Shown here: positions 9,395 through 41,312 of the stretch, piece by piece
Layout: each line of letters opens with the position of its first letter
Position numbering within the stretch: the stretch's first letter is position 1
Assembly (NCBI GenBank): GCA_016867495.1
Contig: VGJL01000010.1
Coordinates: 1 to 41,884 of the forward strand
Reading direction: 5' to 3'
Origin: Candidatus Eisenbacteria bacterium
GTDB taxonomy: Bacteria; Eisenbacteria; RBG-16-71-46; CAIMUX01; VGJL01
DNA length: 41,884 bases
Made by a program: the position numbers and the translations under genes
The notes under the pieces: model-generated
Databases searched by the model: none
Seen by the model: the letters and a program-made list of their open reading frames with translations, nothing else
What the model was told of the DNA's origin: nothing

Positions 9395-10837
9395 ATGATC
9401 GGCAACGACGAAGGCCGGGAGGGAGCCGTCCGGGTCGACTTCGCCTTCAAGCGAGAGCTGGCGAAGAAGATCGAGGGGAACCTCGCGAGCTACTGCTACC
9501 AGTGCGGGGCCTGCGCGGGCGATTGCCCCGCCACGACCTACAGCGGCAACCGGTTCAATCCGCGCGAGATCATGTTGAAGGTTCTCTACGGCCTCGGCGA
9601 TGAGCTGCTCACGAAGGAGTCGATCCTCTGGGAGTGCACCAACTGCTACAACTGTCATGAGCGATGCCCGCAGGAGGTGAAGCCGGTAGAGGTCATCATC
9701 TCCCTGAAAAACATGCTTGCCGATCGCGGGATCTGCCCCGAGCCCGTGGAACAGGTCATTCGGACGTTCGAGTCGAGCGGTCGAACGACCCCGATGACAT
9801 CGGCCGTCAATCGGCAGCGGGAGTCATATGGCCTCTCTCCCCTGATGGATGTCCCGATGGAGGAGGTTCGAGCGCTCATCGAACCGGAGGCGGGACCGGT
9901 GATCGCCACGGCGGCCGAGTTCCCCGAGATCGCGCGGAGGCCGGCCCCGACCTCCACCGACTCGCAAGGCTCGCGCCGCTTCGCCTTCTTCCCCGGCTGC
10001 TTGATCCCCGTGAGGCATCCGGCGATGGAGTTCGCGATTCGCCATACGCTCTTGAACCTCGGCATCGAGATCGTCGACCTCGAGGGCGCCTCCTGCTGCC
10101 CCGATCCGATCTACTTCAAGTCCAAGGACAAGCTGTCGTGGCTCTGCGTCGCCGCCCGCAATCTCTGCCTGGCCGAGGAGCAGGGCGTCGATCTGTTCAC
10201 GAACTGCTCCGGGTGCACGGCGACCCTTTCGGAGACCTACCACCTTCTTCATGACGATGCGCTGCGGGCTCGGGTGAATGAGAGGCTGGCGAGGATCGGG
10301 AAGAGGTACGAGGGCCGAAGCCGCATTCGCCACATCGTGACCCTGCTGAGGGACGTCGTCGGCTATGAAGCCGTCAGGGCGTCGGTCGTTCGGCCTCTCG
10401 AAGGGCTCAACGTGGCGATCCACTACGGCTGCCATCTTCTGAAGCCGAGCAAGATCATGGCGGTGGATGATCCGAACAACCCGATCGTGATGGAGAACCT
10501 AGTCGAGGCGCTGGGGGCGAAGCCCGTCCGCCACAGGAACTGGCACCTGTGCTGCGGGAAGGCCTGTCAGGCGGAGGACATCCCCTCGAACATGATGCAC
10601 GATCTCCTCGGCGCCGTCCGGGAAGAGCGGGCCGACCTTCTGGGGTTGATCTGCCCGACCTGCTTCGGCCAGTTCGATCACGGGCAGGCGAAGATCGCGG
10701 CGCAGTTCGGGGAGGAGTTCGGCACGCCCGCCGTCTACTACTTCCAGCTTCTCGCGTTCGCGCAGGGCGTTTCCTACGACAAGCTGGGATTCGCGAGGCA
10801 GCGCTTCAAGCCGGAGTGCTTGAAGAGGTTTGAATAA
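9395..10837 (+). CDS. hdrB: HdrC-HdrB fusion with canonical HdrB noncubane-cluster CCG motifs
   Basis: 480 residues. The N-terminal HdrC part has CYQCGACAGDCP (about 29-40) and CTNCYNCHERCP (about 79-90). After a linker, the HdrB part begins at FFPGCLIP (about 195) and shows ASCCPDPIYF, NCSGCTATL, then YGCHLLKPS, HLCCGKACQ and CPTCFGQFD. These are the cysteine sets that hold the two noncubane [4Fe-4S] clusters of HdrB, which cleave disulfides in methanogens. It is therefore the better candidate in this operon for a heterodisulfide-reductase-type active site. It is the last gene of the operon; the ATG overlaps a short upstream frame and lies 40 bases after the zinc-ribbon gene. The natural substrate is unknown. 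Confidence 0.88.
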   Translation: MIGNDEGREGAVRVDFAFKRELAKKIEGNLASYCYQCGACAGDCPATTYSGNRFNPREIMLKVLYGLGDELLTKESILWECTNCYNCHERCPQEVKPVEVIISLKNMLADRGICPEPVEQVIRTFESSGRTTPMTSAVNRQRESYGLSPLMDVPMEEVRALIEPEAGPVIATAAEFPEIARRPAPTSTDSQGSRRFAFFPGCLIPVRHPAMEFAIRHTLLNLGIEIVDLEGASCCPDPIYFKSKDKLSWLCVAARNLCLAEEQGVDLFTNCSGCTATLSETYHLLHDDALRARVNERLARIGKRYEGRSRIRHIVTLLRDVVGYEAVRASVVRPLEGLNVAIHYGCHLLKPSKIMAVDDPNNPIVMENLVEALGAKPVRHRNWHLCCGKACQAEDIPSNMMHDLLGAVREERADLLGLICPTCFGQFDHGQAKIAAQFGEEFGTPAVYYFQLLAFAQGVSYDKLGFARQRFKPECLKRFE

Positions 10838-29752: not shown

Positions 29753-30220
29753 CTACCGGATCGCCCCCTCCTTGCCCAGGAGCCTGCGCAGGAGTCCGAT
29801 CTGGCCCAAGTGATACGCCTCATGGAAGTGGAGCATGGCGATCTTCTCGGCCACGGTTCCATCAGGACCCGCCGCCGTGAGTCGCTCGGGAGAAGTCCGC
29901 GCCAGGGCCGCCACGATCCTCTCCTGTGAGCGATCGATGGCGCCCAGGATCTTCTCCAGGGGAGCCGCGGCGCCCGCATCGATCATCGGTTTCGAGCCGC
30001 GGATGTAGGGGGCCGACTCCGCCTCGGTCCAGATCGCCGGCTCCTCGAGGAGCCGCAGGATCGAGTTCCGCTGCTGGGCGATGTGTCCGAGGACCCAGTT
30101 GATGCAGTTCCCCGCCCCGGGCGGCTGAGCGAGGCTCTCCTCGTGGGTGATCCCTTTCATGTTCACGCCGAGCACGTGGTGGTTGATGCCGAAGAGCATG
30201 GCCAGCACTTCCGCGTTCAT
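29753..30220 (-). CDS. DinB-superfamily metal-dependent protein
   Basis: 155 residues, four-helix DinB/YfiT fold. Likely metal histidines are seen in VLGHIAQQRN (about 46) and in the C-terminal HFHEAYHLGQIGLL. Members include thiol S-transferases (bacillithiol, mycothiol) and proteins of unknown role. The ATG overlaps the end of mfd on the same strand (ATGA at 30217-30220, the mfd stop overlapping this start), so it is translated together with mfd. A stress-related function is possible but unproved. Confidence 0.75.
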   Translation of the reverse strand: MNAEVLAMLFGINHHVLGVNMKGITHEESLAQPPGAGNCINWVLGHIAQQRNSILRLLEEPAIWTEAESAPYIRGSKPMIDAGAAAPLEKILGAIDRSQERIVAALARTSPERLTAAGPDGTVAEKIAMLHFHEAYHLGQIGLLRRLLGKEGAIR

Positions 30221-33200
30221 CGTTCCTCCTGTGGGGTTTCTTGGCCGTCGGTCGCCCCCGGGCCTCCCCGCACGGTCCCGGGCATGGCGATCTCCGTCTC
30301 GAGCAGGCTGCGCAAGATGGCGAGGGCTGAGTGGATCGGGCCCAGATCCGGGTCGATCTGCTGGCAGGTGATCCGATGGCGCCCGCGAGCCGGCGTCCTG
30401 AACTCGACCGGGACCGGCGCCTCCGCGATCCGCTTGATGTCGCCGCGCGTGAGCGGCTCGCGGAACTCCAGCATGATCAGGCGCCGGCGTATCGTGGCCG
30501 TCTCGACGCCCGCCTGTCCCGCCAGGAGGCGAACCCTCCGCAGATCGAAAAGGTGCCGCCCCGGATCGGGGAGGGATCCGAATCGATCGCGGACTTCCTC
30601 CTCGATCGCGGCCACGCCCTCGATCTCATTCGTGTCGGCGAGGGACTTGTACAGGTTCATCTTCTCCCGCACGTCCGGGACGAAGCCGTCGGGGAGATAG
30701 GCCTCCAGATCGGTGACGATCCGCGCCTCGCGCGGCGCCTCGAGGGGAATCCCCTTCAGCTCGCGCACCGTCTCGTCCAGGAGGCGGCAGTAGAGATCGA
30801 AGCCGACGTTCAGGATGAAGCCGTGCTGTTCGGCGCCGAGGAGGTTCCCCGCCCCGCGGATCTCGAGGTCCCGCATCGCGAGCTGGAAGCCGGAGCCCAA
30901 GTCGCCGAACTCCTCGATCGCCTTCAGGCGCTTCTGGGCCTGCTCGGTGATCGATCGATAGGGGGGAGTGAGTAGGAAGGCATAGGCCTTCCTCGACGAG
31001 CGTCCCACCCGGCCCCGCAACTGGTAGAGCTGGGCGAGGCCGAAGGTGTCGCCGCGGTTCACGAGGATCGTGTTCACGTTCGGGAAATCGAGGCCCGATT
31101 CGATGATCGCGGTCGAGATGAGGACGTCGTACTCCTTGGCGAGGAAGTCGCGCATCACCCTCTCGAGATGCTGCTCGCGCATCTGCCCGTGGGCGATCGC
31201 GAATCTCAGGTGGGGGGCCAGGCCGGCGAGATAGCCCGCGATCGCGTCGATCGACTCGATCCGGTTGTGGACGAAGAACGACTGTCCGCCGCGGTCGGCC
31301 TCGCGCATCAGCGCGTGGGCGATCAAGTCGTCTCGGAACTCGACGATCTCGGTCTGGATCGGGCGCCTGTCGACAGGCGGCGTCATGATGGTGGACATGT
31401 CCCGCCCGCCGGAAAGGGCCAGATGGAGGGTCCGCGGGATCGGCGTCGCCGTGAGGGTGAGGCAATCGACGGTCTCGGTGAGCTTCTTCAGTCGCTCCTT
31501 GTGGACGACGCCGAAGCGGTGCTCCTCGTCGATGATCAAGAGGCCGAGTTCGCGGAAGACGACATCCTTCTGGATCAAGCGATGGGTGCCGATCAGGATG
31601 TCGACACGTCCCTTGCGAAGCTCCTCGATGACGGCCTTCTGCTCCTTCGCCGATCGGAAGCGCGAGAGCATCTCGACGCGGACCGGGAACTCGCGCAGCC
31701 TCTCGCTGAAGGTATCGAAGTGCTGCTCGGCCAGGAGGGTTGTCGGCACCAGCACGGCGACCTGCTTGCCGTCGATCACGGCCTTGAAGGCGGCGCGCAG
31801 CGCCACCTCCGTCTTGCCGTAGCCGACATCGCCGCAGACGAGCCGGTCCATCGGGGCCGGCGACTCCATGTCGGTCTTGACCTCGGAGATCGCCTTCAAC
31901 TGATCGGGCGTCTCTTCGTAGGGAAAGGCCAGCTCGAGCGCGGCCTGCGCGTCGCTGTCAGGCGCGAAGGAGTGTCCCGGCCGGGAGCGGCGAATGGCAT
32001 AGGTGCGCAACAGCTCCTCTGCCATATCACGGATCCGGCGCTTGATCTGCGCCTTCTTGCGCGCCCAGGTCGGCGTCCCGAGTCGGCTGAGCTGCGGGCG
32101 ATGCCCTTCCTCGGCCGAGTAGCGCTGGACGACGCTCAGCTGCTCGACCGGGATGTAGAGCTTGTCGCCTCCCGCGTACTCGAGCGTCATGCAATCGGTC
32201 TCCTGCCCGTCGACGAGCAGGCGCGAGAGCCCGCGATAGACGCCGATGCCGTGATCGATGTGGACGACGAAGTCCCCCTGGCTCATCGCCAGAAGCTCCT
32301 TGACGGAGATGCCGCGCGAGAAGCGGCGGCCGGCGCTGCGGCGGCGGGTGCGGGCGAAGATCTCGTGGTCCGTCAGGACGGCGAGGCCGATGTCGGGAAT
32401 CTCGAACCCGCCCGCGAGGTTGCCGACATGGAACTCCGCCGGGACGGGATGGAGAAGCTCGGAGAGCCGTTCCCGGTGGGGCTCGGTGTCGCAGAGGATG
32501 TGGATGCGGGGGCAAGTCTCCCGCAGGCGGAGGATGTAGGAGCGGGTCAGCTCCAGGTTTCTGCCGAAGCGCTCGGCGGGGCGGGTGTGCATCCTGTGGG
32601 CGTCTTCTTCGCCGGCATCGCTCGCCGACTGCGAGAACTCGATTCGGACGGGGGTGGAGTCGTCGGGCGCCTCGATGGAGCGATCACGGGACTCGCCGGC
32701 ATCGCAGCGCGTCGCGCCGGCGAGATCGGCGAGAACGGCGAAGAGACGATCAGGCGGCGAGACGACGCGGCCTCCCTCCACCGCCGTCTCATAGGCGTTC
32801 GCGGCTGCCTCGATGATCGCCTCGGATATCGATCGCAGCCTCGCCGGCTCCTCCAGGACGATCCAGGCGGGCGAGGGAAGATAGGCCCCCGGCTGGACGA
32901 GCGGAATGGGATAGAAGCCCGCCAGCCATTCCGAGCCGTCGAACATCCCCTCGCCGCGGACCAGATCGACCAGCGCCTCCTCGACGCCGCCGCGCTCTTC
33001 GAGGACGCGCCCGGCCTCCTCGCGCTCCGCCGCGGACGGCTGAAGGGCGGCAGTCGGCAAGATGACGACCTCCTGCTGCGTCCCAAGGGAACGCTGCGTG
33101 AAGACATCGAACTCGCGGAGGCTCACGATCTCGTCGCCGTCGAACTCGCAACGCACCGGGTGCTCTCGGCCGAGCGTGTAGATGTCGAGGATGCCGCCGC

Positions 33201-33792
33201 GCCTGCTCGCGTCACCGTATTCTCCGACCATCGGGGAGAGTTCGTAGCCGACATCGACGAGGTGCCGCACCAGGATGTCGGGATCGGCACTCTCGCCCAC
33301 CCTCAGCGTCCGTATCCGATCTCGCAGCCATGCGGGCTCGGGGACCTTGCGCATCCAGGCCGGCGGCGTGGTCACGATGACGCGAAGGTCGCGCAACATG
33401 GGGAGCGAGGCCGGGGAGCCGAGGGCGAGGGCGCTCAGGATCTCGGCCCGGACCGACCGCGCTGGACTCCGGGCGGGAGCGGCCCCGTATGGGTCCTCGC
33501 CGAGATCGGGGAAGAGGACGGCGGAGCGCGGCCCCAGGAGGAAGTCGATGTCCTCCCGGATCTCGTCGGCGTCATGAGCCTCGGCCGTGATCAGGACGAT
33601 GGGCGCCGCGCGCTCTCTGGCCAGCGCGGCGAGGGCGAGAGAGCGCGTCGAGGCGACCAATCCTCCGATGCGAGCACGTTTTGCCCCGCCTCGAAGGTCG
33701 GCGAGGACCTTCGCGAAGGCGGGCCAGGCGGCGAACCTCTCGAGGATGGAGTCCGCTACCGAGAGGCCGACCCGAGCGTCCGCTCTTGGCAT
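30217..33792 (-). CDS. mfd: Transcription-repair coupling factor
   Basis: 1191 residues, standard length. Mfd removes RNA polymerase stalled at DNA damage and recruits UvrA. Visible: the UvrB-like N-terminal part (GPRSAVLFPDLGEDPYG, GDASRRGGILDIYTLG), the polymerase-binding CarD-like segment (MSQGDFVVHIDHGIGVYRG), Walker A GDVGYGKTEVALRA (about 650), the DEEH box LLIIDEEHRFGV, TLTATPIPRTLH, and the helicase C part STAIIESGLDFPNVNT and QLRGRVGRSSRKAYA, then the TRCF C-terminal domain. A TATACT lies ten bases before the ATG, so the message is probably leaderless. It is the last recognisable core gene before the cassette array. Confidence 0.95.
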   Translation of the reverse strand: MPRADARVGLSVADSILERFAAWPAFAKVLADLRGGAKRARIGGLVASTRSLALAALARERAAPIVLITAEAHDADEIREDIDFLLGPRSAVLFPDLGEDPYGAAPARSPARSVRAEILSALALGSPASLPMLRDLRVIVTTPPAWMRKVPEPAWLRDRIRTLRVGESADPDILVRHLVDVGYELSPMVGEYGDASRRGGILDIYTLGREHPVRCEFDGDEIVSLREFDVFTQRSLGTQQEVVILPTAALQPSAAEREEAGRVLEERGGVEEALVDLVRGEGMFDGSEWLAGFYPIPLVQPGAYLPSPAWIVLEEPARLRSISEAIIEAAANAYETAVEGGRVVSPPDRLFAVLADLAGATRCDAGESRDRSIEAPDDSTPVRIEFSQSASDAGEEDAHRMHTRPAERFGRNLELTRSYILRLRETCPRIHILCDTEPHRERLSELLHPVPAEFHVGNLAGGFEIPDIGLAVLTDHEIFARTRRRSAGRRFSRGISVKELLAMSQGDFVVHIDHGIGVYRGLSRLLVDGQETDCMTLEYAGGDKLYIPVEQLSVVQRYSAEEGHRPQLSRLGTPTWARKKAQIKRRIRDMAEELLRTYAIRRSRPGHSFAPDSDAQAALELAFPYEETPDQLKAISEVKTDMESPAPMDRLVCGDVGYGKTEVALRAAFKAVIDGKQVAVLVPTTLLAEQHFDTFSERLREFPVRVEMLSRFRSAKEQKAVIEELRKGRVDILIGTHRLIQKDVVFRELGLLIIDEEHRFGVVHKERLKKLTETVDCLTLTATPIPRTLHLALSGGRDMSTIMTPPVDRRPIQTEIVEFRDDLIAHALMREADRGGQSFFVHNRIESIDAIAGYLAGLAPHLRFAIAHGQMREQHLERVMRDFLAKEYDVLISTAIIESGLDFPNVNTILVNRGDTFGLAQLYQLRGRVGRSSRKAYAFLLTPPYRSITEQAQKRLKAIEEFGDLGSGFQLAMRDLEIRGAGNLLGAEQHGFILNVGFDLYCRLLDETVRELKGIPLEAPREARIVTDLEAYLPDGFVPDVREKMNLYKSLADTNEIEGVAAIEEEVRDRFGSLPDPGRHLFDLRRVRLLAGQAGVETATIRRRLIMLEFREPLTRGDIKRIAEAPVPVEFRTPARGRHRITCQQIDPDLGPIHSALAILRSLLETEIAMPGTVRGGPGATDGQETPQEER

Positions 33793-33808: not shown

Positions 33809-33935
33809 GCGGATCGCGGAGGCGATGAGCGCTCTTCGAGGCGGGGTCCGCGCGGCCGTGGTCGCATCCTCGGCGTCGGGGCGGTTGCTCCATTAAGCCT
33901 TGCGGTTGTCTCCTCGGCATGGAGGAAAGGGAGTG

Positions 33936-33962
33936 TTGAATGTCGGGGTTCCGGTGTATGAT
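33936..33962 (+). promoter_or_regulatory. Candidate promoter at the head of the cassette array
   Basis: TTGAAT (33936-33941), 15-base spacer, TATGAT (33957-33962), pointing into the cassettes. This is the only plausible two-box promoter in the non-coding stretch 33793-34154 between mfd and the first cassette gene; that stretch shows no gene and no integrase. The spacer is one or two bases short, so the call is tentative. Confidence 0.35.
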
Positions 33963-34154
33963 GGACTCGCCCAGGAGATAGGCCGGCGCGGGATGGAACA
34001 CCAGGGAACAGGCCAGATTTCGAGCCCCCGCAACCCCGGCCATCCGGCAGGCGACAGGCGGGAGATCGGCGTGACTCTTCGCGGCGACTATCCGACCATC
34101 TCGCACCGCTCCGCGGCATATCCTCGTGGAGGCGCAGCGGCATCGCGCCGTTTT

Positions 34155-34622
34155 GTGGGAACCAAGGAGACAAGGAATCTGAACAAGGTCTTGCGCCGCA
34201 GGTTGCTGGTCGGAGTCGCTGCCCTTGCTACCCTTCTTTCCCTATCCTGCGACTCGAACGAAACCGATGAGCGCGTGCCCCCCGCGTCCAAAGGGCTGTC
34301 CGGTGTGTGGGTAGGTGTCGTTTACGACGCGTGCGACATTCCCGAGATGGTCGATCCGGAGTTGGTGCTGGATCTCGTCGAGGTCGATTCGGTGATCGCA
34401 GGAACGTCCTGGATCCGCTGTGGAGGGGGCCCAGATTCATTGGTTTCGGGTGTGTGGAATGGCGGTCTGGTGTCCTTCTGCAGTCGTGGTCCAGAGGCCG
34501 ACCACGAGTTTTCTGGCTCCCTTGTGGGTATGAACCGCCTCGAGGGTACGTACCGGTTTCGACTGAGGGCGACGGGCGAGTACGTTTGGAGTTCATCCTG
34601 GTATGCAGATCGGGAAGACTGA
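34155..34622 (+). CDS. Predicted lipoprotein, first gene of the cassette array
   Basis: About 155 residues. The N-terminal hydrophobic stretch LLVGVAALATLLSLSCDSN looks like a lipoprotein signal with a poor lipobox (Ser at -3). The mature part is short and beta-rich with the start SGVWVGVVYDACD and the block LEGTYRFRLRATGEY, which recalls lipocalin-like small domains, but I do not recognise the family. The GTG at 34155 is a legal start, yet the best-placed start is a CTG at 34179 that gives MNKVLRRRLL with AAGGAG nine bases upstream. An attC site follows 20 bases after the stop. Confidence 0.6.
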   Translation: MGTKETRNLNKVLRRRLLVGVAALATLLSLSCDSNETDERVPPASKGLSGVWVGVVYDACDIPEMVDPELVLDLVEVDSVIAGTSWIRCGGGPDSLVSGVWNGGLVSFCSRGPEADHEFSGSLVGMNRLEGTYRFRLRATGEYVWSSSWYADRED

Positions 34623-34641: not shown

Positions 34642-34769
34642 GCATAACGGCGCGGTGGAGCAGGCGGCGATCCCGTCCCGCTCTTGGCGGAGGTGCTGCA
34701 GAGTGAAGCGACGGGCCCGTGTGGGCCAACAGCGGTCCGAATGGCCGCAGCTCAACGAGAGCGTTATGA
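34642..34769 (+). repeat. attC site A (128 bp)
   Basis: The ends are fully complementary: CATAACG at 34643-34649 and CGTTATG at 34762-34768. The inner arms share GAGCAGGCGGCG, CGCTCTTGGCGG on the left and GGGCCAACAGCGG, CCGCAGCTC on the right. The GTT is at 34763-34765, and the ATG of the next gene lies within the right core box. Confidence 0.85.
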
Positions 34770-35260
34770 CTACGGGCGGTCGCCCACTACCTGTTGTGCG
34801 ACGACCAAGTCCAGGAGGCGTATTTGCTCTTCTCTTTGTCATCGCGTTTTCGGCTCCGGGGTGCTGCGTGATCGGCGCGGCTGCAGCACATCGGAGCGAG
34901 ATCAAGAGGGATCGGGCAACAAGAGGCAACGTCGGGTTGTTAAACACGATGACACGGGGCACGATGGTCACTGTCAAACAGGCCGGGGCGCCCGCTGTCA
35001 CCGGCAAGTTCCTGGGGTGTTCGGTGGCTGGAACGAGCGACGCCGAGCCTCTGGGGGGGGGTGGCGACGAGTTGCTACATCTTCGTGTTGGTCGGCGATC
35101 CGTAGCAATCAGGACGGAGCATGTTGAGTGGGTGGAGCTGAAGTCCTCTCCTCATGTAGTATTGGCTGGCTTTGGCGTGGGCTTAGCTGTTGATCTCTTC
35201 GTTCTCTATCGTTTGTTTCTGCCGCTTTCCGGCCTAGGGGGTTATGGGACACTGAGATGA
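34766..35260 (+). CDS. Cassette-encoded membrane protein with lipoprotein-like signal
   Basis: 164 residues. The start ATG lies inside the core box of attC A. The N terminus has a signal-type helix (GVFALLFVIAFSAPGCC) with a possible lipobox before Cys. The middle (TRGTMVTVKQAGAPAVTGKFLG ... VAIRTEHVEWVEL, quoted in part) looks like a small beta barrel of SH3/Sm-like type. The C terminus has a hydrophobic helix (VVLAGFGVGLAVDLFVLYRL). I do not recognise the family. No ribosome site can be seen before the ATG because attC sequence precedes it. The gene is followed at 12 bases by attC B. Confidence 0.65.
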   Translation: MTTGGRPLPVVRRPSPGGVFALLFVIAFSAPGCCVIGAAAAHRSEIKRDRATRGNVGLLNTMTRGTMVTVKQAGAPAVTGKFLGCSVAGTSDAEPLGGGGDELLHLRVGRRSVAIRTEHVEWVELKSSPHVVLAGFGVGLAVDLFVLYRLFLPLSGLGGYGTLR

Positions 35261-35272
35261 GCAATGCATGAG

Positions 35273-35400
35273 TCGTAACAGCGTGGTGGAGCAGCCGGCG
35301 ATCCCGTCCCGCTCTTGGCGGAGTGGCTTCAGAGGAATGCGGAGGGCAAGGGTGGGCCAAAAGCGGCCAAGTCCGCCGCTGCTTAACGCGAGCGTTGGAT
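35273..35400 (+). repeat. attC site B (128 bp)
   Basis: Left core CGTAAC (to 35279), right core GTTGGAT (35394-35400), which is a full match to GTTRRRY. The inner arms carry GAGCAGCCGGCG, CGCTCTTGGCGG and GGGCCAAAAGCGG, CGCCGCTGCTTAA. Confidence 0.82.
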
Positions 35401-35420
35401 ACTGCTGGGGAGCCCATGAG

Positions 35421-35981
35421 ATGAAACCCGCCCTCGTCGCGTTGCTGATCGCTTCATGCGGGGTGGTCGCTGCCCAGCCCGAGGTCACGCCGATCGATGA
35501 GTGCGGTTTCCTTGAGCAGGTCGGGGACTGCATCTTCTTTGAACCGAACAACAGCTGGGATCTACTCGTCACCGACCTTGCAGTGCTTCCTGACTCGCTT
35601 GTCTATAGACCCGTGAGGCTCATCGGTGATCTGGTCTCCTGTCAATATGACTGTGCCGGGTGGACATACCGCAGCTGCATTGTCGGCACTCAGGTTGGGA
35701 CATGCGAGCGCGTCGACCTGGGTTGTGGTGTCCTGCAGGAGGACGTCACGGACTTCTGCCATGTCTGGATCTCTCCAGTACACGGCATTCTACCTACGTC
35801 ACTCTATGGTCACGCAGACGGTGATACGGTTAGAGTGCTTGGCGTCATCGACCGCAGTGTTCTATCAACGTGCATGTTCGGGGACGGAAGCCTCTGCAAC
35901 GAAGTATTCTACGAATGCGTCGACAGCGTTGACGCAACCAGGAACATCACATGGGGCAAGCTGAAAGGCATCTTCAGGTGA
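35421..35981 (+). CDS. Cassette-encoded exported cysteine-rich protein, family member 1
   Basis: 186 residues. A signal peptide (MKPALVALLIASCGVVAA) is followed by a mature region with about 13 cysteines. It shares with two other cassette proteins (36137-36718 and 40090-40674) the layout: IDxCG near the start, a DCxxF step, a LGCGVL block in the middle (here DLGCGVLQEDV), GDTVRxxG, a Cys-rich part and a C-terminal W-G-K-L-K tail (ITWGKLKGIFR). The cysteines suggest disulfides in the periplasm or outside. Function unknown. GGGGAG eight bases before the ATG is the ribosome site. This is the most distant member of the three. Confidence 0.7.
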   Translation: MKPALVALLIASCGVVAAQPEVTPIDECGFLEQVGDCIFFEPNNSWDLLVTDLAVLPDSLVYRPVRLIGDLVSCQYDCAGWTYRSCIVGTQVGTCERVDLGCGVLQEDVTDFCHVWISPVHGILPTSLYGHADGDTVRVLGVIDRSVLSTCMFGDGSLCNEVFYECVDSVDATRNITWGKLKGIFR

Positions 35982-35991
35982 TCGGCGCGGT

Positions 35992-36119
35992 GCCGAACGG
36001 CGCGGTGGAGCAGGCGCCGGATCCGTCTCGCTCTTGGCGGAGTGGCTCTCGAGGAGTGCGGAGGCCAGGAGTGGGCCAAGAGCGGTCGGTCTCGCCGCTG
36101 CTCAACGCGGGCGCTAAGC
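35992..36119 (+). repeat. attC site C (128 bp), altered core
   Basis: Left core GCCGAAC (35992-35998). The right core reads GCTAAGC (36113-36119), which is GTTRRRY with the second T changed to C. The arms GAGCAGGCGCCGG, CGCTCTTGGCGG and GGGCCAAGAGCGG, CGCCGCTGCTCAA are intact. The changed triplet may block recombination here. Confidence 0.8.
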
Positions 36120-36136
36120 ACATGCGAGAGAGACGT

Positions 36137-36718
36137 ATGAGTCTAGCTAAGACATGGTTCAGCACCTGCCTCATGCTGAGCTTAGCCGCATGCTCAACAA
36201 GCGAGGCGGAGCGAATCGATAGCTGCGGCCAGATCTACCGCGATCGTGACTGCTTGCTCTTCTTTGCGTACGGGGGTCCTCATCCAGGTTGTTCCTACGT
36301 TCTCCCGGACACCGCTCAGCTGGCGGTGGATTCCGAGTGGCGTATCGTCGGTGATGCGCGACGGATGTCACGCAGGTGTGGGTACATCACGTACTACAAC
36401 GCCTTGGATCCCGTGAGCATTGGTCCGTGCGTCCCGGAGACGCTGGGTTGCGGTGTGCTGTGGAATTTCGAACCGGAGTATAACTGCTACGTCTGGTCGA
36501 AGCTTGGGTACGTAGAGACCAGGCTGCTGACGGACGGGCTTCATGGGTTCGATTTCGGGGATACGGTCTTCGCGGTTGGGATTCGAATGCCTTGCATCGA
36601 CATTTGCATCTGTGGATGCGGCTGCCTGGTCCACTATGAGTTCAGCGCGTGTGGTGACACGCTGACACCCGTAGAGAGAATGTCATGGGGCCGGGTGAAG
36701 GCCCTCTACAGGGAGTGA
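36137..36718 (+). CDS. Cassette-encoded cysteine-rich lipoprotein, family member 2
   Basis: 193 residues. A lipoprotein signal (FSTCLMLSLAAC, lipobox LAAC) is followed by a mature domain closely similar to the protein at 40090-40674: RIDSCGQI, DCLLFFAY, SEWRIVGDAR, CVPETLGCGVLW, YVWSKLG, GDTVFAVGI, CICGCGCL, and the tail MSWGRVKALYRE. At least eleven cysteines are shared in register. It must act at the envelope; the function is unknown. An ATG at 36122 would give five more residues. The two close copies in one array, each with its own attC, point to cassette duplication followed by divergence. Confidence 0.7.
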   Translation: MSLAKTWFSTCLMLSLAACSTSEAERIDSCGQIYRDRDCLLFFAYGGPHPGCSYVLPDTAQLAVDSEWRIVGDARRMSRRCGYITYYNALDPVSIGPCVPETLGCGVLWNFEPEYNCYVWSKLGYVETRLLTDGLHGFDFGDTVFAVGIRMPCIDICICGCGCLVHYEFSACGDTLTPVERMSWGRVKALYRE

Positions 36719-36726
36719 AACGGAGT

Positions 36727-36854
36727 GCCTGACAGCGCGTTTGAGCAGGCGGCGGATCCGTCTCGCTCTTGTCGGAGTGGCTCTCGAGGAGTGCGGAGGG
36801 CAGGAGTGGGTCAAGAGCGGTCAGTACCGCCGCTGCTCAACGCGGGCGTTGGGG
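36727..36854 (+). repeat. attC site D (128 bp), altered left core
   Basis: The left core is GCCTGAC (36727-36733), RYYYAAC with the first A changed to G. The right core is GTTGGGG (36848-36854). The arms TTGAGCAGGCGGCGG, CGCTCTTGTCGG and GGGTCAAGAGCGG, CGCCGCTGCTCAA are kept. Confidence 0.8.
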
Positions 36855-36876
36855 GTCTATTCAGGAGGGCCCGACC

Positions 36877-37386
36877 CTGAGGCTCTGTATCCTGTTCCTG
36901 GCAGTGCTACTCGCAGTCCACGTCCCGCGGGCATACGGCCAACTGATCTTCGGCTGCGACGCCTCACTCCATGGTAGCCGGGTTGTTCCGCCGACTAACT
37001 CGCCGGGCGGCGCCTCATTCGAGTTCACATTTGCCGCCTGCGCAGGTTGCTATGACTGTGTGACTGGGTCCACGGTTGACTCGCTCGCGGTGATCTTCCG
37101 TTACCAGCTCTTGGCGGGGACGCCGACAGGTGCCTCGCTTTTTGCCGGGGAGCCAGGAGTGAACGGTGTCTTCCTGCGTCGGATGGCAAGTGGTTACTTT
37201 GCGAGCGGCGATACACTGTACGTCCACATCATCCCTGACGAGTGCGACGACTTCACGTATGGAAGCACCTACGTGGTCATCGAAACCGATGTGTATCCGA
37301 GCGGGGAGGTTCGCGGGCAACTGAGATGTCACGTATCTCCCGTTGTGGAGGAGTCGTGGGGTTTCCTCCGTTCGCTGTATCGATGA
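36877..37386 (+). CDS. Cassette-encoded exported CHRD-like domain protein
   Basis: About 169 residues. After a signal peptide (LFLAVLLAVHVPRAYG) comes a CHRD-like domain: ASLHGSRVVPPTNSPG near the start, LYVHIIPDE, and the closing YPSGEVRGQLRCH, which is the usual CHRD end. CHRD proteins are exported beta-sandwich proteins of uncertain role. The C-terminal tail ESWGFLRSLYR matches the tails of the cysteine-rich cassette proteins, although the domains are unrelated. No ATG, GTG or TTG is suitable; AGGAGG (36863-36868) points to a CTG at 36877 as start (MRLCILFLAV). Confidence 0.65.
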   Translation: MRLCILFLAVLLAVHVPRAYGQLIFGCDASLHGSRVVPPTNSPGGASFEFTFAACAGCYDCVTGSTVDSLAVIFRYQLLAGTPTGASLFAGEPGVNGVFLRRMASGYFASGDTLYVHIIPDECDDFTYGSTYVVIETDVYPSGEVRGQLRCHVSPVVEESWGFLRSLYR

Positions 37387-37387
37387 C

Positions 37388-37516
37388 CCCTAACAGCGCG
37401 GTGGAGCAGACGGCGCTCCCGTCCCGCTCTTGGCGGGTTAGCTGGAGTGCTCGTTCGCTGGTCCGTGTGGGCCAAGAGCTGTCCGAATCGCCCGCAGCTC
37501 GACGCGGGCGTTACAT
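37388..37516 (+). repeat. attC site E (129 bp)
   Basis: Left core CCCTAAC (37388-37394), right core GTTACAT (37510-37516). The arms GAGCAGACGGCG, CGCTCTTGGCGG and GGGCCAAGAGCTG, CGCCCGCAGCTC match the other sites. Confidence 0.83.
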
Positions 37517-37596
37517 CCCTTTACGTGGTCCCGCCCAGCATGAGGGGAGCTGCTACTCCGGGTTGTGCTCCAAGAATGTCACTGTGGAGGAACACG

Positions 37597-38397
37597 ATGA
37601 GATCTCGCCTGACTCTGAATCACATACTGGTTCTAGGACTAGTAACCTGCCTGACGGCCGGGTGTGGCACTTCCTATACACTCTCAATGCAGGCTCACCG
37701 CGATCCTCTCAACGACAGCGTTGTGACCGCCGCCTTGAAGGGTGCGCCTTGTCGAAAGGTCATGGTGATACCTCCATCCGGAACTATTCGGGGGAAGTTC
37801 GATCGATTCATCGCCCTGTTTGAAAAGGAGCTCATGAGAGCGGGTGTCACCGTGGTTTCGGGTGCCGTTACTGGCAGGATTGTCCTGAGCACCGAATCTG
37901 ACACCACTGTCCACCGGGTCGAAGCGGCGAGGCCGCTCTCCGACGCTGAGAGGGCGTTGGTCATGGCCGAGGGAACTGGAGCGGAGGCTTTGTTTCAGCT
38001 CGGCGACTTCGAATGGGAGGCCTCATCACCAACTAGGTTCTTTGCAGCTCTTCCACCAGGCTCAGCCAAGCAGTTCATTGAGGTTAGCCGAGATGAGTAT
38101 AACAGTACCTCCAGACTGAGGAGACTCTGCTTCGAATCTCAGAAGCTTCGCTTTACTGGTCGGCTCACTGACCTGCAGTCCGGGACGTTGCTGGCATCAC
38201 TTGATGTAAGCTGTCCAATGAACTACACGCTCCCTGAAGACTACGTAGCGCGCTTTCGTTCTGACTCGAGGGGTCCTGATGTTGAGCACATGAAAGAGAA
38301 CTTCGCGTATAAGGAAGGGTCATGGGTCGAGCAAGCACGGGGGGATACTGAGATTCGGGTGATCCGTCTGATAGCAGCACTCATCACGGGTCGATGA
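37597..38397 (+). CDS. Cassette-encoded lipoprotein
   Basis: 266 residues. The lipoprotein signal ends in the lipobox LTAGC. The mature part begins with SYTLSMQAHRDPLND and a strand-loop-helix block (KVMVIPPSGTIRGKFDRF ... LMRAGVTVVSGAV). This recalls the CsgG/LpoB-like lipoproteins that have an alpha-beta sandwich, but the match is by eye only. It then has GAEALFQLGDFEWE and the late segment LTDLQSGTLLASLDVSC, again of CsgG style. GGAGG lies six bases before the ATG. It lacks the W-G tail of its neighbours. The gene begins 80 bases after the end of attC E, the longest such gap in the array apart from the IS site. Confidence 0.65.
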   Translation: MRSRLTLNHILVLGLVTCLTAGCGTSYTLSMQAHRDPLNDSVVTAALKGAPCRKVMVIPPSGTIRGKFDRFIALFEKELMRAGVTVVSGAVTGRIVLSTESDTTVHRVEAARPLSDAERALVMAEGTGAEALFQLGDFEWEASSPTRFFAALPPGSAKQFIEVSRDEYNSTSRLRRLCFESQKLRFTGRLTDLQSGTLLASLDVSCPMNYTLPEDYVARFRSDSRGPDVEHMKENFAYKEGSWVEQARGDTEIRVIRLIAALITGR

Positions 38398-38426
38398 AGG
38401 GAGCATGAGGGGGTGGTCGTAACCTG

Positions 38427-38552
38427 ATCTAACTACGCTTGAGCAGGCGGCGATTCCGTCCCGCTCTTGGCAAAGTGGCTCCTGGGTGACACGACGATTC
38501 GGGGTTGCCTAAGAGCGGTCCGGTCCGCCGCTGCTCACCGCGGGCGTTGATA
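38427..38552 (+). repeat. attC site F (126 bp), target next to the IS110-type element
   Basis: Left core ATCTAAC (38427-38433), right core GTTGATA (38546-38552). The arms GAGCAGGCGGCG, CGCTCTTGGCAA and TTGCCTAAGAGCGG, CGCCGCTGCTCAC are kept. The IS110/IS1111-type element begins right after the GTTGAT. Confidence 0.82.
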
Positions 38553-38560
38553 TGACTTCC

Positions 38561-38833
38561 ACTGTCAAGGACGTTTGAGAGCTGGCGGTTTACATGCGTG
38601 TTCTCCGGGAAACGAGAAGGTTCAGGGAAGAGGCGGAGCCAGCAGTCACGACGGTTGATCCTGCTGATATCCGTGGGTTGGTTACCACCTTGCTTGATTC
38701 CGTCCAGCGCCTTCCTCTGTCTAGGCACGAGGGTCGACCGAAGTCGCCTCTTAACGCCGCCGAGGGTTGCGCCAAACCGGGGCCGCGCCTCTTCCCGGAA
38801 AACCGGTTCATGCCTGGTTCGCCGAGTGCGGAC
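38561..38833 (-). ncRNA. Candidate bridge-RNA region of the IS110/IS1111-type element
   Basis: 273 non-coding bases downstream of the transposase gene, the position of the bridge RNA in IS1111-type elements. On the minus strand it contains GCGGCGTTAA (complement of 38748-38757), which resembles the right core of attC (GCGGGCGTTRR). This would fit a target guide. No structure was computed; the call rests on position and this short match. Confidence 0.3.
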
Positions 38834-39949
38834 TCAGGCCTTCCCGTTTACCTGTCCAGCGATCGCCCACATGAAGGCGGCGAGTTCGCGGGCGATGGCG
38901 GTGACAACGACGTTGGGGTTCTTGCCTCGCGCGGTCAGCCGACGGAATCGCTTGCAGAGCCGGACCTGCGCTTTCCAAGCGATGTCCTGAACGGGCTTGG
39001 GGAGTTTCTCCAGCCGTTTCCGGATGTGTTCGGAGACCTTGGCCGGATGGCGGTAGGCCCAGGCGCCTTCCACAAGGGCGCGGCGGGCATGGGCATTGCC
39101 CCCTTTGGTGATCCCACCCTGGCGCCGGCCCTCGCCCGAGGAGTACTCGCTGGGGATCAGGCCCAGGAAGGCGGCGAGCTGTCGGGGAGTATCAAAGCGA
39201 GTCAAGTCTCCGATCTCGGCGACAGCGGTGACGGCGGTGATCTGCTGCACACCGCGGAGGGCCTGCAGCGCCTCGACGACGGGGTTCAGGCGCCAGCCAG
39301 GGAGGAACTCGGCGAGGTGTTCTTCGATCCGTTGCAGCCGCTCGGCATGGTCGTCGATTGCGCGGAGGTACTCTTGGAAGACGACCTGTTGCGCCGGGGT
39401 GGGACAGACGATGCGGGCGAGGAACCGACGGTGGGCGTCGTTCCAGTTGGCGCGGCCGACGTAGTGGAGGCCGAGGCGAAGGAGAAAGGACTTCAGGCGC
39501 TGGCGGGCGCCCTTGAGATCGATGACGGCATCCTCGCGGGCGCGGGAGAGGTCGCGGATAGCCTCATCCTCGACCTGAGGGACATAGGCCGTGGTGAGGT
39601 CGCCGGAGCGCAGCAGGCGGGCGAGCTGCACGGCGTCGCGGCGGTCTGTCTTGAGGCGATCACCGGGCTTGCGCGGGATGAGAGAGGGAGCGACGACCAA
39701 GCACTCGAGTCCCTTGGAGGTGAGATGTCGATAGAGGACGTAGCCACAGGGGCCGGCTTCATAGGCAAACACCACGCGCGAGGCACGACTCTGCAGCCGT
39801 CGGACCATCTTGTCGATGTCGCATTCGCGGGTCCCGATGGGACCAACGAAGATCGGTTCATCGGTGCGCTCCGGCCCGCAGGTCGCCACCGCGATCGAAT
39901 CCTTGTGCACGTCGAGACCCACGAAGAGGACGGTGGTAGACTGTGACAT
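38834..39949 (-). CDS. IS110-family (IS1111 group) transposase
   Basis: 371 residues. The N-terminal DEDD RuvC-like domain starts with [15 protein letters not shown] and has [12 protein letters not shown] and [15 protein letters not shown]. The C-terminal Transposase_20 domain has [18 protein letters not shown] and [17 protein letters not shown], whose serine is the likely second catalytic residue, and closes with [14 protein letters not shown]. These are the full domains of an active IS110 recombinase. The start at 39949 is preceded by GGGAGG at six bases. Some IS1111 members insert at attC sites, which agrees with its position here. Confidence 0.92.
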
Positions 39950-40089
39950 GGCTGACCTCCCGATTCGGTTGGATGCCTTTGGTGCCCAACATGCGGCTCT
40001 GGCCTTCGAGGCTAACCCGCGACAAGGTCGGGGGGCAGCCACTCCGACGAACGGAAGTCATGATGTCTAGGCATCTGAAGGGTAGTGGT

Positions 40090-40674
40090 GTGAACCGACT
40101 GAGGACGTGGCTTAGCGTCGGTCTCTTTCTGGGCATGGCGACGCTTTCTGCAGGAGCGGAGGGGGAGCGCATCGATTCCTGCGGCCGGATCTCCCGTATG
40201 GGCGACTGCCTCGTGTTCCAGGCGTACTCGGGCTCGCCGCGTCGCGACTATGTGCTGCCCGACACGACCTATGTGAAGGTGGGTTCGGAGTGGCGGATCG
40301 TAGGCGATGCCCGGCTTCAAACGCGAGTGTGCTGGACCTGGTCCTATCGGTACGCTCTTGAGGTTATCAGCATCAGTCCTTGTGTTCCGGAGACGCTTGG
40401 CTGCGGCGTTCTGTGGGATTTCAATCCGGACTACGACTGCTACGTCTGGTCGGAGCTTGGCAACGCGGCGAATACGATCCTGGTGGGACCTGACCTTCAT
40501 GGTTACGCCCTCGGGGATACTGTCCGGGCGATTGGAGTTCGTGACCCCTGCCTCGACGTCTGCATCTGCGGTTGCGGTTGTCTTTCTCAGTCGCGATTCA
40601 CCAGCTGTGGGGACACGGTGACGTCGGTAATGAAGCTGTCATGGGGCCGAGTGAAGGCCCTCTATGGGGAGTGA
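40090..40674 (+). CDS. Cassette-encoded exported cysteine-rich protein, family member 3
   Basis: 194 residues. Signal peptide (TWLSVGLFLGMATLSAGA), then RIDSCGRI, DCLVFQAY, SEWRIVGDAR, CVPETLGCGVLWDF, CYVWSELG, GDTVRAIGV, CICGCGCL and the tail LSWGRVKALYGE. It is the closest relative of the lipoprotein at 36137-36718, but has a plain signal peptide in place of the lipobox. The GTG at 40090 has GAAGGG upstream. An ATG at 40063 also lies in frame. If the IS is removed, the gene starts about 35 bases after attC F, so the IS has separated it from upstream transcription. Confidence 0.7.
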   Translation: MNRLRTWLSVGLFLGMATLSAGAEGERIDSCGRISRMGDCLVFQAYSGSPRRDYVLPDTTYVKVGSEWRIVGDARLQTRVCWTWSYRYALEVISISPCVPETLGCGVLWDFNPDYDCYVWSELGNAANTILVGPDLHGYALGDTVRAIGVRDPCLDVCICGCGCLSQSRFTSCGDTVTSVMKLSWGRVKALYGE

Positions 40675-40682
40675 AACGTGAC

Positions 40683-40810
40683 CTCTAACCCCGCGGTGGA
40701 GCAGGCGGCGATCCCGTCCCGCTCTTGGCAGGGTGGCTCCCGCGTGACACGGCGGTTCGGAGTGGGCCAAGAGCGGTCCGGTCCGCCGCAGCTCAACGCG
40801 AGCGTTGGCT
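40683..40810 (+). repeat. attC site G (128 bp)
   Basis: Left core CTCTAAC (40683-40689), right core GTTGGCT (40804-40810). Paired arms are GAGC (40699-40702) with GCTC (40791-40794), GCGGCG (40705-40710) with CGCCGC (40784-40789), and CGCTCTTGGC (40720-40729) with GCCAAGAGCG (40766-40775). Confidence 0.86.
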
Positions 40811-40823
40811 GAAGGCGAGTATC

Positions 40824-41297
40824 ATGACGATCAACCTGAGACCGGCGACCGAGAACGACAAGTGGTTCTGTCGGCGAGTGCATCACGAGGCGTATCGCGA
40901 CGTGGTGACACATCAATTCGGCAGATGGGATGAGGCCATGCAGGATGCGTTTTTCGACAAAGGATGGGCTTCGACTCCCCATCAGGTCGTCGAACTGGCC
41001 GGCAGTCCGGTGGGATGCTTCAGTCGGGAGATCGAACCAGACCACATCTTCCTTGCGGAAGTGCAATTGCTGCCGGAGTACCAGAATCGAGGCATCGGAT
41101 CGAGTCTTGTGAGACTGCAGCAGGACGAAGGCGCGAAATTGGGCGTGCCCGTACGCTTGCGTATCTTGAAAGAAAACCGAGCGCGGCGGCTGTATGAACG
41201 GCTGGGTTTTGTGGTCACCGGCGAGACGGAAACGCACATGGAGATGGAATGGACAACCAACAAGCCCATACAGGCGGCGCGGTACCCGCGCGCCTGA
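40824..41297 (+). CDS. Cassette-encoded GNAT acetyltransferase
   Basis: 157 residues. A single GNAT domain: start INLRPATENDKWFC, core strand and P-loop VQLLPEYQNRGIGSSLVRL (the QxxGxG acetyl-CoA site), and the late LKENRARRLYERLGFVV. Such enzymes acetylate small amines, antibiotics or protein termini; the substrate here is unknown. GNAT genes are common cassette cargo. Its attC (H) is of the short type and overlaps the last 43 bases of the gene, so this cassette probably came from another integron. It is one of two cytoplasmic proteins in the region, the other being the IS transposase. Confidence 0.88.
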   Translation: MTINLRPATENDKWFCRRVHHEAYRDVVTHQFGRWDEAMQDAFFDKGWASTPHQVVELAGSPVGCFSREIEPDHIFLAEVQLLPEYQNRGIGSSLVRLQQDEGAKLGVPVRLRILKENRARRLYERLGFVVTGETETHMEMEWTTNKPIQAARYPRA

Positions 41298-41312
41298 TGG
41301 GCGCCGTTATGC
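41255..41312 (+). repeat. attC site H (58 bp, classical short type)
   Basis: Left core AACCAAC (41255-41261), right core GTTATGC (41306-41312). The stem is CCCAT/ATGGG, CAGGCG/CGCCTG, CGCGG/CCGCG with loop TAC (41283-41285). It has two extrahelical bases on the left arm, A41270 and G41277, the usual attC strand marks. It is unlike the seven long sites in arm sequence. Confidence 0.85.

Follow-up and report, generated by a model that had tools for sequence, protein, structure and literature searches.

The attC sites of the Vibrio cholerae chromosomal integron (VCR) are long, species-specific and nearly uniform in length and arm sequence. Sedentary chromosomal integron arrays are usually counted in tens of cassettes. 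In this study, we analyzed a stretch of 41,884 nucleotides (the window; contig VGJL01000010.1 of assembly GCA_016867495.1, Candidatus Eisenbacteria bacterium) that carries an array of gene cassettes with attC recombination sites. Like VCR, these sites are long, near-uniform in length and arm sequence, and specific to their host genome. Unlike in V. cholerae, the integrase orientation is the opposite one and the array is far shorter, with nine cassettes before the contig end. Transcription of the integrase gene (intI) toward the insertion site attI has been described for Treponema (PMC3607928), and a position of attI downstream of intI for archaea (PMC9668308). The window's lineage shares this orientation, whereas the window array differs from both in its phylum, its genome-specific attC family and its lost integrase. 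Most reported archaeal integrons are of the CALIN type (clusters of attC sites lacking integron-integrases; PMC9668308). Like a CALIN, the window array comprises two or more attC sites and has no adjoining intI. It differs from CALINs in general in that the cause is readable, since the 3' end of intI and its leader are left at the array head. We conclude that the window very probably holds a chromosomal integron cassette array, which had the platform order intI, attI, cassettes and later lost intI by deletion, so that the attC sites now form a cluster with no integrase.

A first-pass annotation, made from the letters of the window, had proposed an integron cassette array with seven palindromic sites of 126-129 bp that share arms, end in AAC...GTT and separate small plus-strand genes, followed by a classical 58-bp attC. 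Our repeat search of the window found a 139-nt unit seven times, at the places given by that annotation. When exact ends were set, the seven long sites measured 126-129 bp, with pairwise identities of 64-87%. A 31-base arm pattern occurred seven times in the window vs. none in 100 dinucleotide shuffles. The lengths and shared arms thus stood as proposed, but the ends did not in every site: the 5' core AAC was kept in seven of the eight sites (attC 4 has GAC), and the 3' core GTT likewise in seven (attC 3 has GCT). All seven long sites start 1-29 bp past a plus-strand stop codon, and the direction is the same throughout the array, in agreement with the proposed separation of small genes. A GNAT acetyltransferase gene extends with its 3' end into the 58-bp site. 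The eight sites are packed into 6.7 kb (34642-41312) with no intact intI adjoining, as in a CALIN.

The sites were then compared with an independent covariance model. Seed sites were taken by a simple rule (a home-made site finder) applied beside proteobacterial intI genes, giving alignment A5. The fold of A5 was backed by covariation, as 13 of 19 pairs changed on both sides and none of 500 shuffles reached this value. Model R2, built from these proteobacterial sites of the short type, found attC arrays beside intI in metagenome-assembled genomes (MAGs) labelled Acidobacteria, Rokubacteria, Krumholzibacteriota, Planctomycetota and Myxococcales. It also found them in three genomes of the window's phylum, which was sampled by 47 genomes of a single class, and almost all of its array matches lay on the bottom strand. 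Model R3 was built from R2 matches with a short calibration; its seed held no sequence of the window's genome, a few rows from other genomes of the phylum, and a few rows that are the wrong strand of true sites. In a search of the whole window, the top eight R3 matches were exactly the eight sites, all on the bottom strand, at E 4e-7 to 1e-3 and with ends agreeing to within 3 nt. Outside the sites, no match was better than E 1.4, and scores were far lower when the sites were read on their top strands. The 58-bp site was in addition the top R2 match in the window. An Rfam search of the region matched no family. Owing to the imperfect cores, the home-made finder recovered just two of the eight sites in cassette orientation, and it gave three stray matches in the first 34 kb; it was used solely for the seed sites near proteobacterial intI and for the layout comparison. 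The bottom-strand model check that the first-pass annotation had called for therefore returned all eight sites, the 58-bp one included, and we regard them with high confidence as attC sites.

No integrase gene was found in the window, as the first-pass annotation had said. However, it had overlooked that the array is headed by what is left of the intI 3' end. Window positions 33921-34155 are 78% identical to the last codons and leader of an integron-integrase pseudogene on another contig (C6) of the same genome. There, the pseudogene is followed on its own strand by a single 128-bp site. The gene is interrupted by an in-frame TGA, misses part of its N-terminus and leaves nothing aligned to TIGR02249 positions 193-223; its pieces sum to 279.7 bits against this family, with a cut-off of 265. 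Homology between the window and C6 ends at GCGCCGTT, and beyond this point the first cassettes differ between the two loci. The GTT at this boundary is likely to be the attI junction. Just upstream of the remnant, on the other strand, lies mfd (30217-33792), recognized by its sequence rather than by a family search. The shared 3' end and leader indicate that the window holds a cassette array with a deleted integrase. On the simplest reading, the array would once have stood behind its own intI, of which about 14 codons remain. The window thus holds a CALIN with a relic platform and not a complete integron, as intI is present only as a remnant.

In the mechanism that we propose, an integron integrase would have inserted the small genes one by one at attI, each bringing its own attC at its 3' end, with the folded bottom strand of attC as the substrate. 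The original platform would have had the order intI, attI, cassettes on a single strand. Later, intI would have been deleted save for the remnant, while leader and attI stayed. Integrase loss probably came after the growth of the array, which may now be mostly static, barring an integrase that works in trans.

The folds were consistent with attC in part. The free energy of the bottom strand was better than that of shuffles for sites 3, 4, 6 and 7, the 58-bp site and the C6 site. In a hand-drawn structure of the aligned long sites, 87% of cells pair. The arms of the long sites are unequal, with two bases in the 3' arm vs. one in the other (A4 columns 109-110 against 22), and the extra base of the proteobacterial set A5 sits on the same arm. 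Several observations weigh against our reading. By free energy alone, sites 1, 2 and 5 fold no better than shuffles, and no compensatory changes were seen among the eight long sites (seven in the window and one on C6). The core heptamers have 0-2 mismatches to RYYYAAC and GTTRRRY, attC 3 and attC 4 have the damaged cores mentioned above, and the putative attI heptamer, GTTTTGT, is non-canonical. With R2 alone, the 128-bp sites reach only E about 7. The search of the genome gave no intact intI of the matching type, which leaves activity of the array unsupported. The folding results, the missing compensatory changes and the damaged cores would fit copies of recent common ancestry on which strong selection may no longer act.

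We next turned to the integrase layout of relatives. Six genomes of the phylum have a GTTA core (mostly GTTAGRY) 200-400 bp downstream of intI, preceded by ATATCC- or GGATAC-like motifs. Arrays of attC then follow on the intI strand where contigs extend far enough. These results indicate that intI points toward attI and the cassettes. In an IntI tree of 76 rows, 16 co-directional and 15 divergent layouts fell on two sides of one branch (support 94/68). This amounts to one change of layout, a number as low as which was reached in none of 500 label shuffles; for four phylum members the label was assigned from the attI-like core only, and for C6 from a single locus. The only intact IntI found in the window's genome is encoded on contig C35, by a 488-aa open frame that is extended at the N-terminus and scores 379 bits to TIGR02249. 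In the tree it shares a long branch with copies from three other genomes of the sample (G003, G006 and G008). In this N-terminally extended clade (L003/L015 on C35, L046, L047 and L048), the 5' side is near a contig end in all four. On the 5' side of the G003 clade-mate lie an attI-like core and a small gene; this is the canonical divergent layout. From the distance of the clade and this layout, the C35 integrase is unlikely to be the enzyme of the window array. The genome-wide search for intI proposed by the first-pass annotation thus yielded a pseudogene and an intact gene of a distant type, but no intact gene of the matching type.

Table 1. Features of the cassette array in the window. R3 scores of attC sites refer to the bottom strand.
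Feature	Start	End	Strand	Details
intI 3'-end remnant	33921	33962	+	about 14 codons; identity to 3' end of C6 intI pseudogene
Leader ending in probable attI core	33963	34152	+	core GTT 34150-34152; two-locus homology stops at GCGCCGTT
Cassette 1 gene	34155	34622	+	lipoprotein-like; no Pfam family; start codon uncertain
attC 1	34642	34769	+	128 bp; R3 35.3 bits, E 8e-6
Cassette 2 gene	34766	35260	+	membrane-protein-like; no Pfam family
attC 2	35273	35400	+	128 bp; R3 28.9 bits, E 2e-4
Cassette 3 gene	35421	35981	+	secreted-like; C-terminus TWGKLKGIFR
attC 3	35992	36119	+	128 bp; 3' core GCT; R3 25.9 bits, E 1e-3
Cassette 4 gene	36137	36718	+	lipoprotein-like; C-terminus SWGRVKALYRE
attC 4	36727	36854	+	128 bp; 5' core GAC; R3 35.1 bits, E 9e-6
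Cassette 5 gene	36904	37386	+	CHRD domain, PF07452 E 5e-8; C-terminus SWGFLRSLYR
attC 5	37388	37516	+	129 bp; R3 32.1 bits, E 4e-5, match 37391-37513
Cassette 6 gene	37597	38397	+	lipoprotein-like; no family above cut-off
attC 6	38427	38552	+	126 bp; R3 28.6 bits, E 2.5e-4
IS110-family transposase	38834	40042	-	PF02371, PF01548; between attC 6 and cassette 7
Cassette 7 gene	40063	40674	+	cassette 4 homologue (DNA repeats D2-D4); C-terminus SWGRVKALYGE
attC 7	40683	40810	+	128 bp; R3 41.1 bits, E 4e-7
Cassette 8 gene	40824	41297	+	GNAT acetyltransferase; PF13508 and PF00583 above cut-off
attC 8, short type	41255	41312	+	58 bp; R2 16 bits; R3 29.2 bits, E 2e-4
Cassette 9 gene	41359	41760	+	lipoprotein-like; contig end (41884) precedes any further site

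The cassettes of the window encode mainly short secreted- or lipoprotein-like proteins without a Pfam family (Table 1). An IS110-family element (38553-40062) lies directly behind attC 6, and a non-coding stretch of about 280 bp separates attC 6 from the transposase gene end. No further IS110 copies, which were sought to define the ends of the element, were found in the genome. A C-terminal tag, [ST]WGx[VL]Kx[LIM][YF]R followed by the stop codon at once or, rarely, 1-4 residues later, was seen in window genes with stops at 35981, 36718, 37386 and 40674, and at loci L057, L157 and L165-L176. The protein of C6 cassette 1 ends like that of window cassette 5, and a Krumholzibacteriota cassette protein has an ending similar to the tag. 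A DNA pattern for the tag matched 35 of the 47 phylum genomes, up to 15 times per genome, and the reversed pattern had no matches. In the retrieved loci, all 52 regex matches were C-terminal. The tag pattern was absent from family f7, and our literature search found no publication on the tag. The tag resembles a signal for sorting or anchoring.

Since the first-pass annotation had named REP-like scatter as what would speak against an integron, we examined the distribution of the 128-bp family. It has eight copies in the 3.35 Mb genome, seven in the window and one further copy on C6, all of them in cassette arrays. No convincing match was found among the 46 other genomes of the phylum, which agrees with the proposed lineage specificity of this site family of uniform length. 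The 128-bp site had no match in IMG/VR (exact pattern) or in a plasmid collection, and the 58-bp site had none in the plasmid collection. A repetitive extragenic palindromic (REP) sequence or miniature inverted-repeat transposable element (MITE) that lies between genes by chance would account for copies that are highly similar and lack covariation. However, this genome-wide distribution ruled the candidate out. The sites also all lie directly behind plus-strand genes, all match the independent attC model on the right strand and with the right ends, and have an intI remnant and leader at the array head, which makes a REP or MITE origin extremely improbable. The contig could also be foreign to the genome through a binning error, as the assembly is fragmented into 373 contigs with an estimated contamination of 3%, and the array would then be uninformative on the lineage. 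This is very unlikely, because C6, from the same genome, also has the 128-bp site type and the leader, and the C-terminal pattern that is widespread in the phylum is found in cassette proteins 3 and 4.

A further alternative accepts the array and disputes its present state. It could still be active, served in trans by the N-terminally extended IntI of C35 or by an intact copy missing from the assembly. The C35 gene is an open frame that scores well above the TIGR02249 cut-off, no damage is apparent in site 7 or the 58-bp site, and an intact copy could be missing from a genome in so many contigs. However, the C35 type belongs to a distant clade with a member of opposite layout, the matching type of intI is represented by the C6 pseudogene and the window remnant, and several sites are damaged. 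We therefore consider continued activity unlikely, though less so than a misplaced contig or a chance repeat, and favor a cassette array orphaned by the deletion of its integrase.

The comparison across the phylum that the first-pass annotation had suggested placed this array among many. TIGR02249 was above cut-off in 13 of the 47 genomes, and R3 detected attC (E <= 0.02) in 25. The length of attC was often typical of the genome, with five sites of 140-141 bp in G040 (contig C104), four of 93-96 bp in G037 (contig C83), six of 107-112 bp in G002 and five of 59-60 bp in G012 (contig C300). In the window's genome, R3 detected a further site on contig C117 and two sites on C6. A second, unrelated attC family was observed on C6, with sites at L014 9411-9526 and about 10143-10250 that flank 9603-10127. 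Its two copies are 95% identical over 88 nt, and the first has an R3 E of 2.5e-5. The C6 cassettes include GNAT genes and, by eye only, KilA-N/ORF6N-like and BrnT/BrnA-like genes; the BrnT/BrnA-like toxin-antitoxin pair (L014:10250-10807) has a seemingly frameshifted toxin. A 62-bp attC of another phylum genome, G025 (L042:9848-9909), has 97% identity to a site of a contig labelled Geobacter sp. MAG (L116:9704-9765). This sequence pair suggests recent cassette exchange between phyla.

The first-pass annotation had raised the possibility of an undescribed integron type. This was not borne out, as the lineage has integrases of the standard TIGR02249 family and the co-directional layout is known (PMC3607928, PMC9668308). 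A list of integron-bearing phyla from 2021 includes neither Eisenbacteria nor Krumholzibacteriota (PMC8618304), and our literature search found no publication pairing an integron with either name. The integrons of the window's lineage thus seem to be undescribed in the literature searched. A Krumholzibacteriota oligopeptidase had at most 45% identity in the window's phylum vs. 42% in an outgroup genome, a comparison of a single protein with paralogues, which argues against the window's phylum being Krumholzibacteriota.

It is possible, and we propose it tentatively, that the phylum has a long-standing integron system of its own. Such a system would combine genome-typical attC lengths (60 to about 140 bp), intI pointing toward attI, repeated integrase loss that leaves arrays behind, a second clade of N-terminally extended integrases with the opposite layout in some genomes, and tagged cassette proteins. 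The wide occurrence of the C-terminal tag in the phylum would then mean that cassettes circulate within it and feed a host-specific protein-export route. The division of 31 integrases into two layouts by a single branch of the IntI tree makes the history of the layout testable. These results extend the range of integrons by an uncultivated phylum, and the window offers a readable case of a chromosomal array orphaned by integrase deletion.

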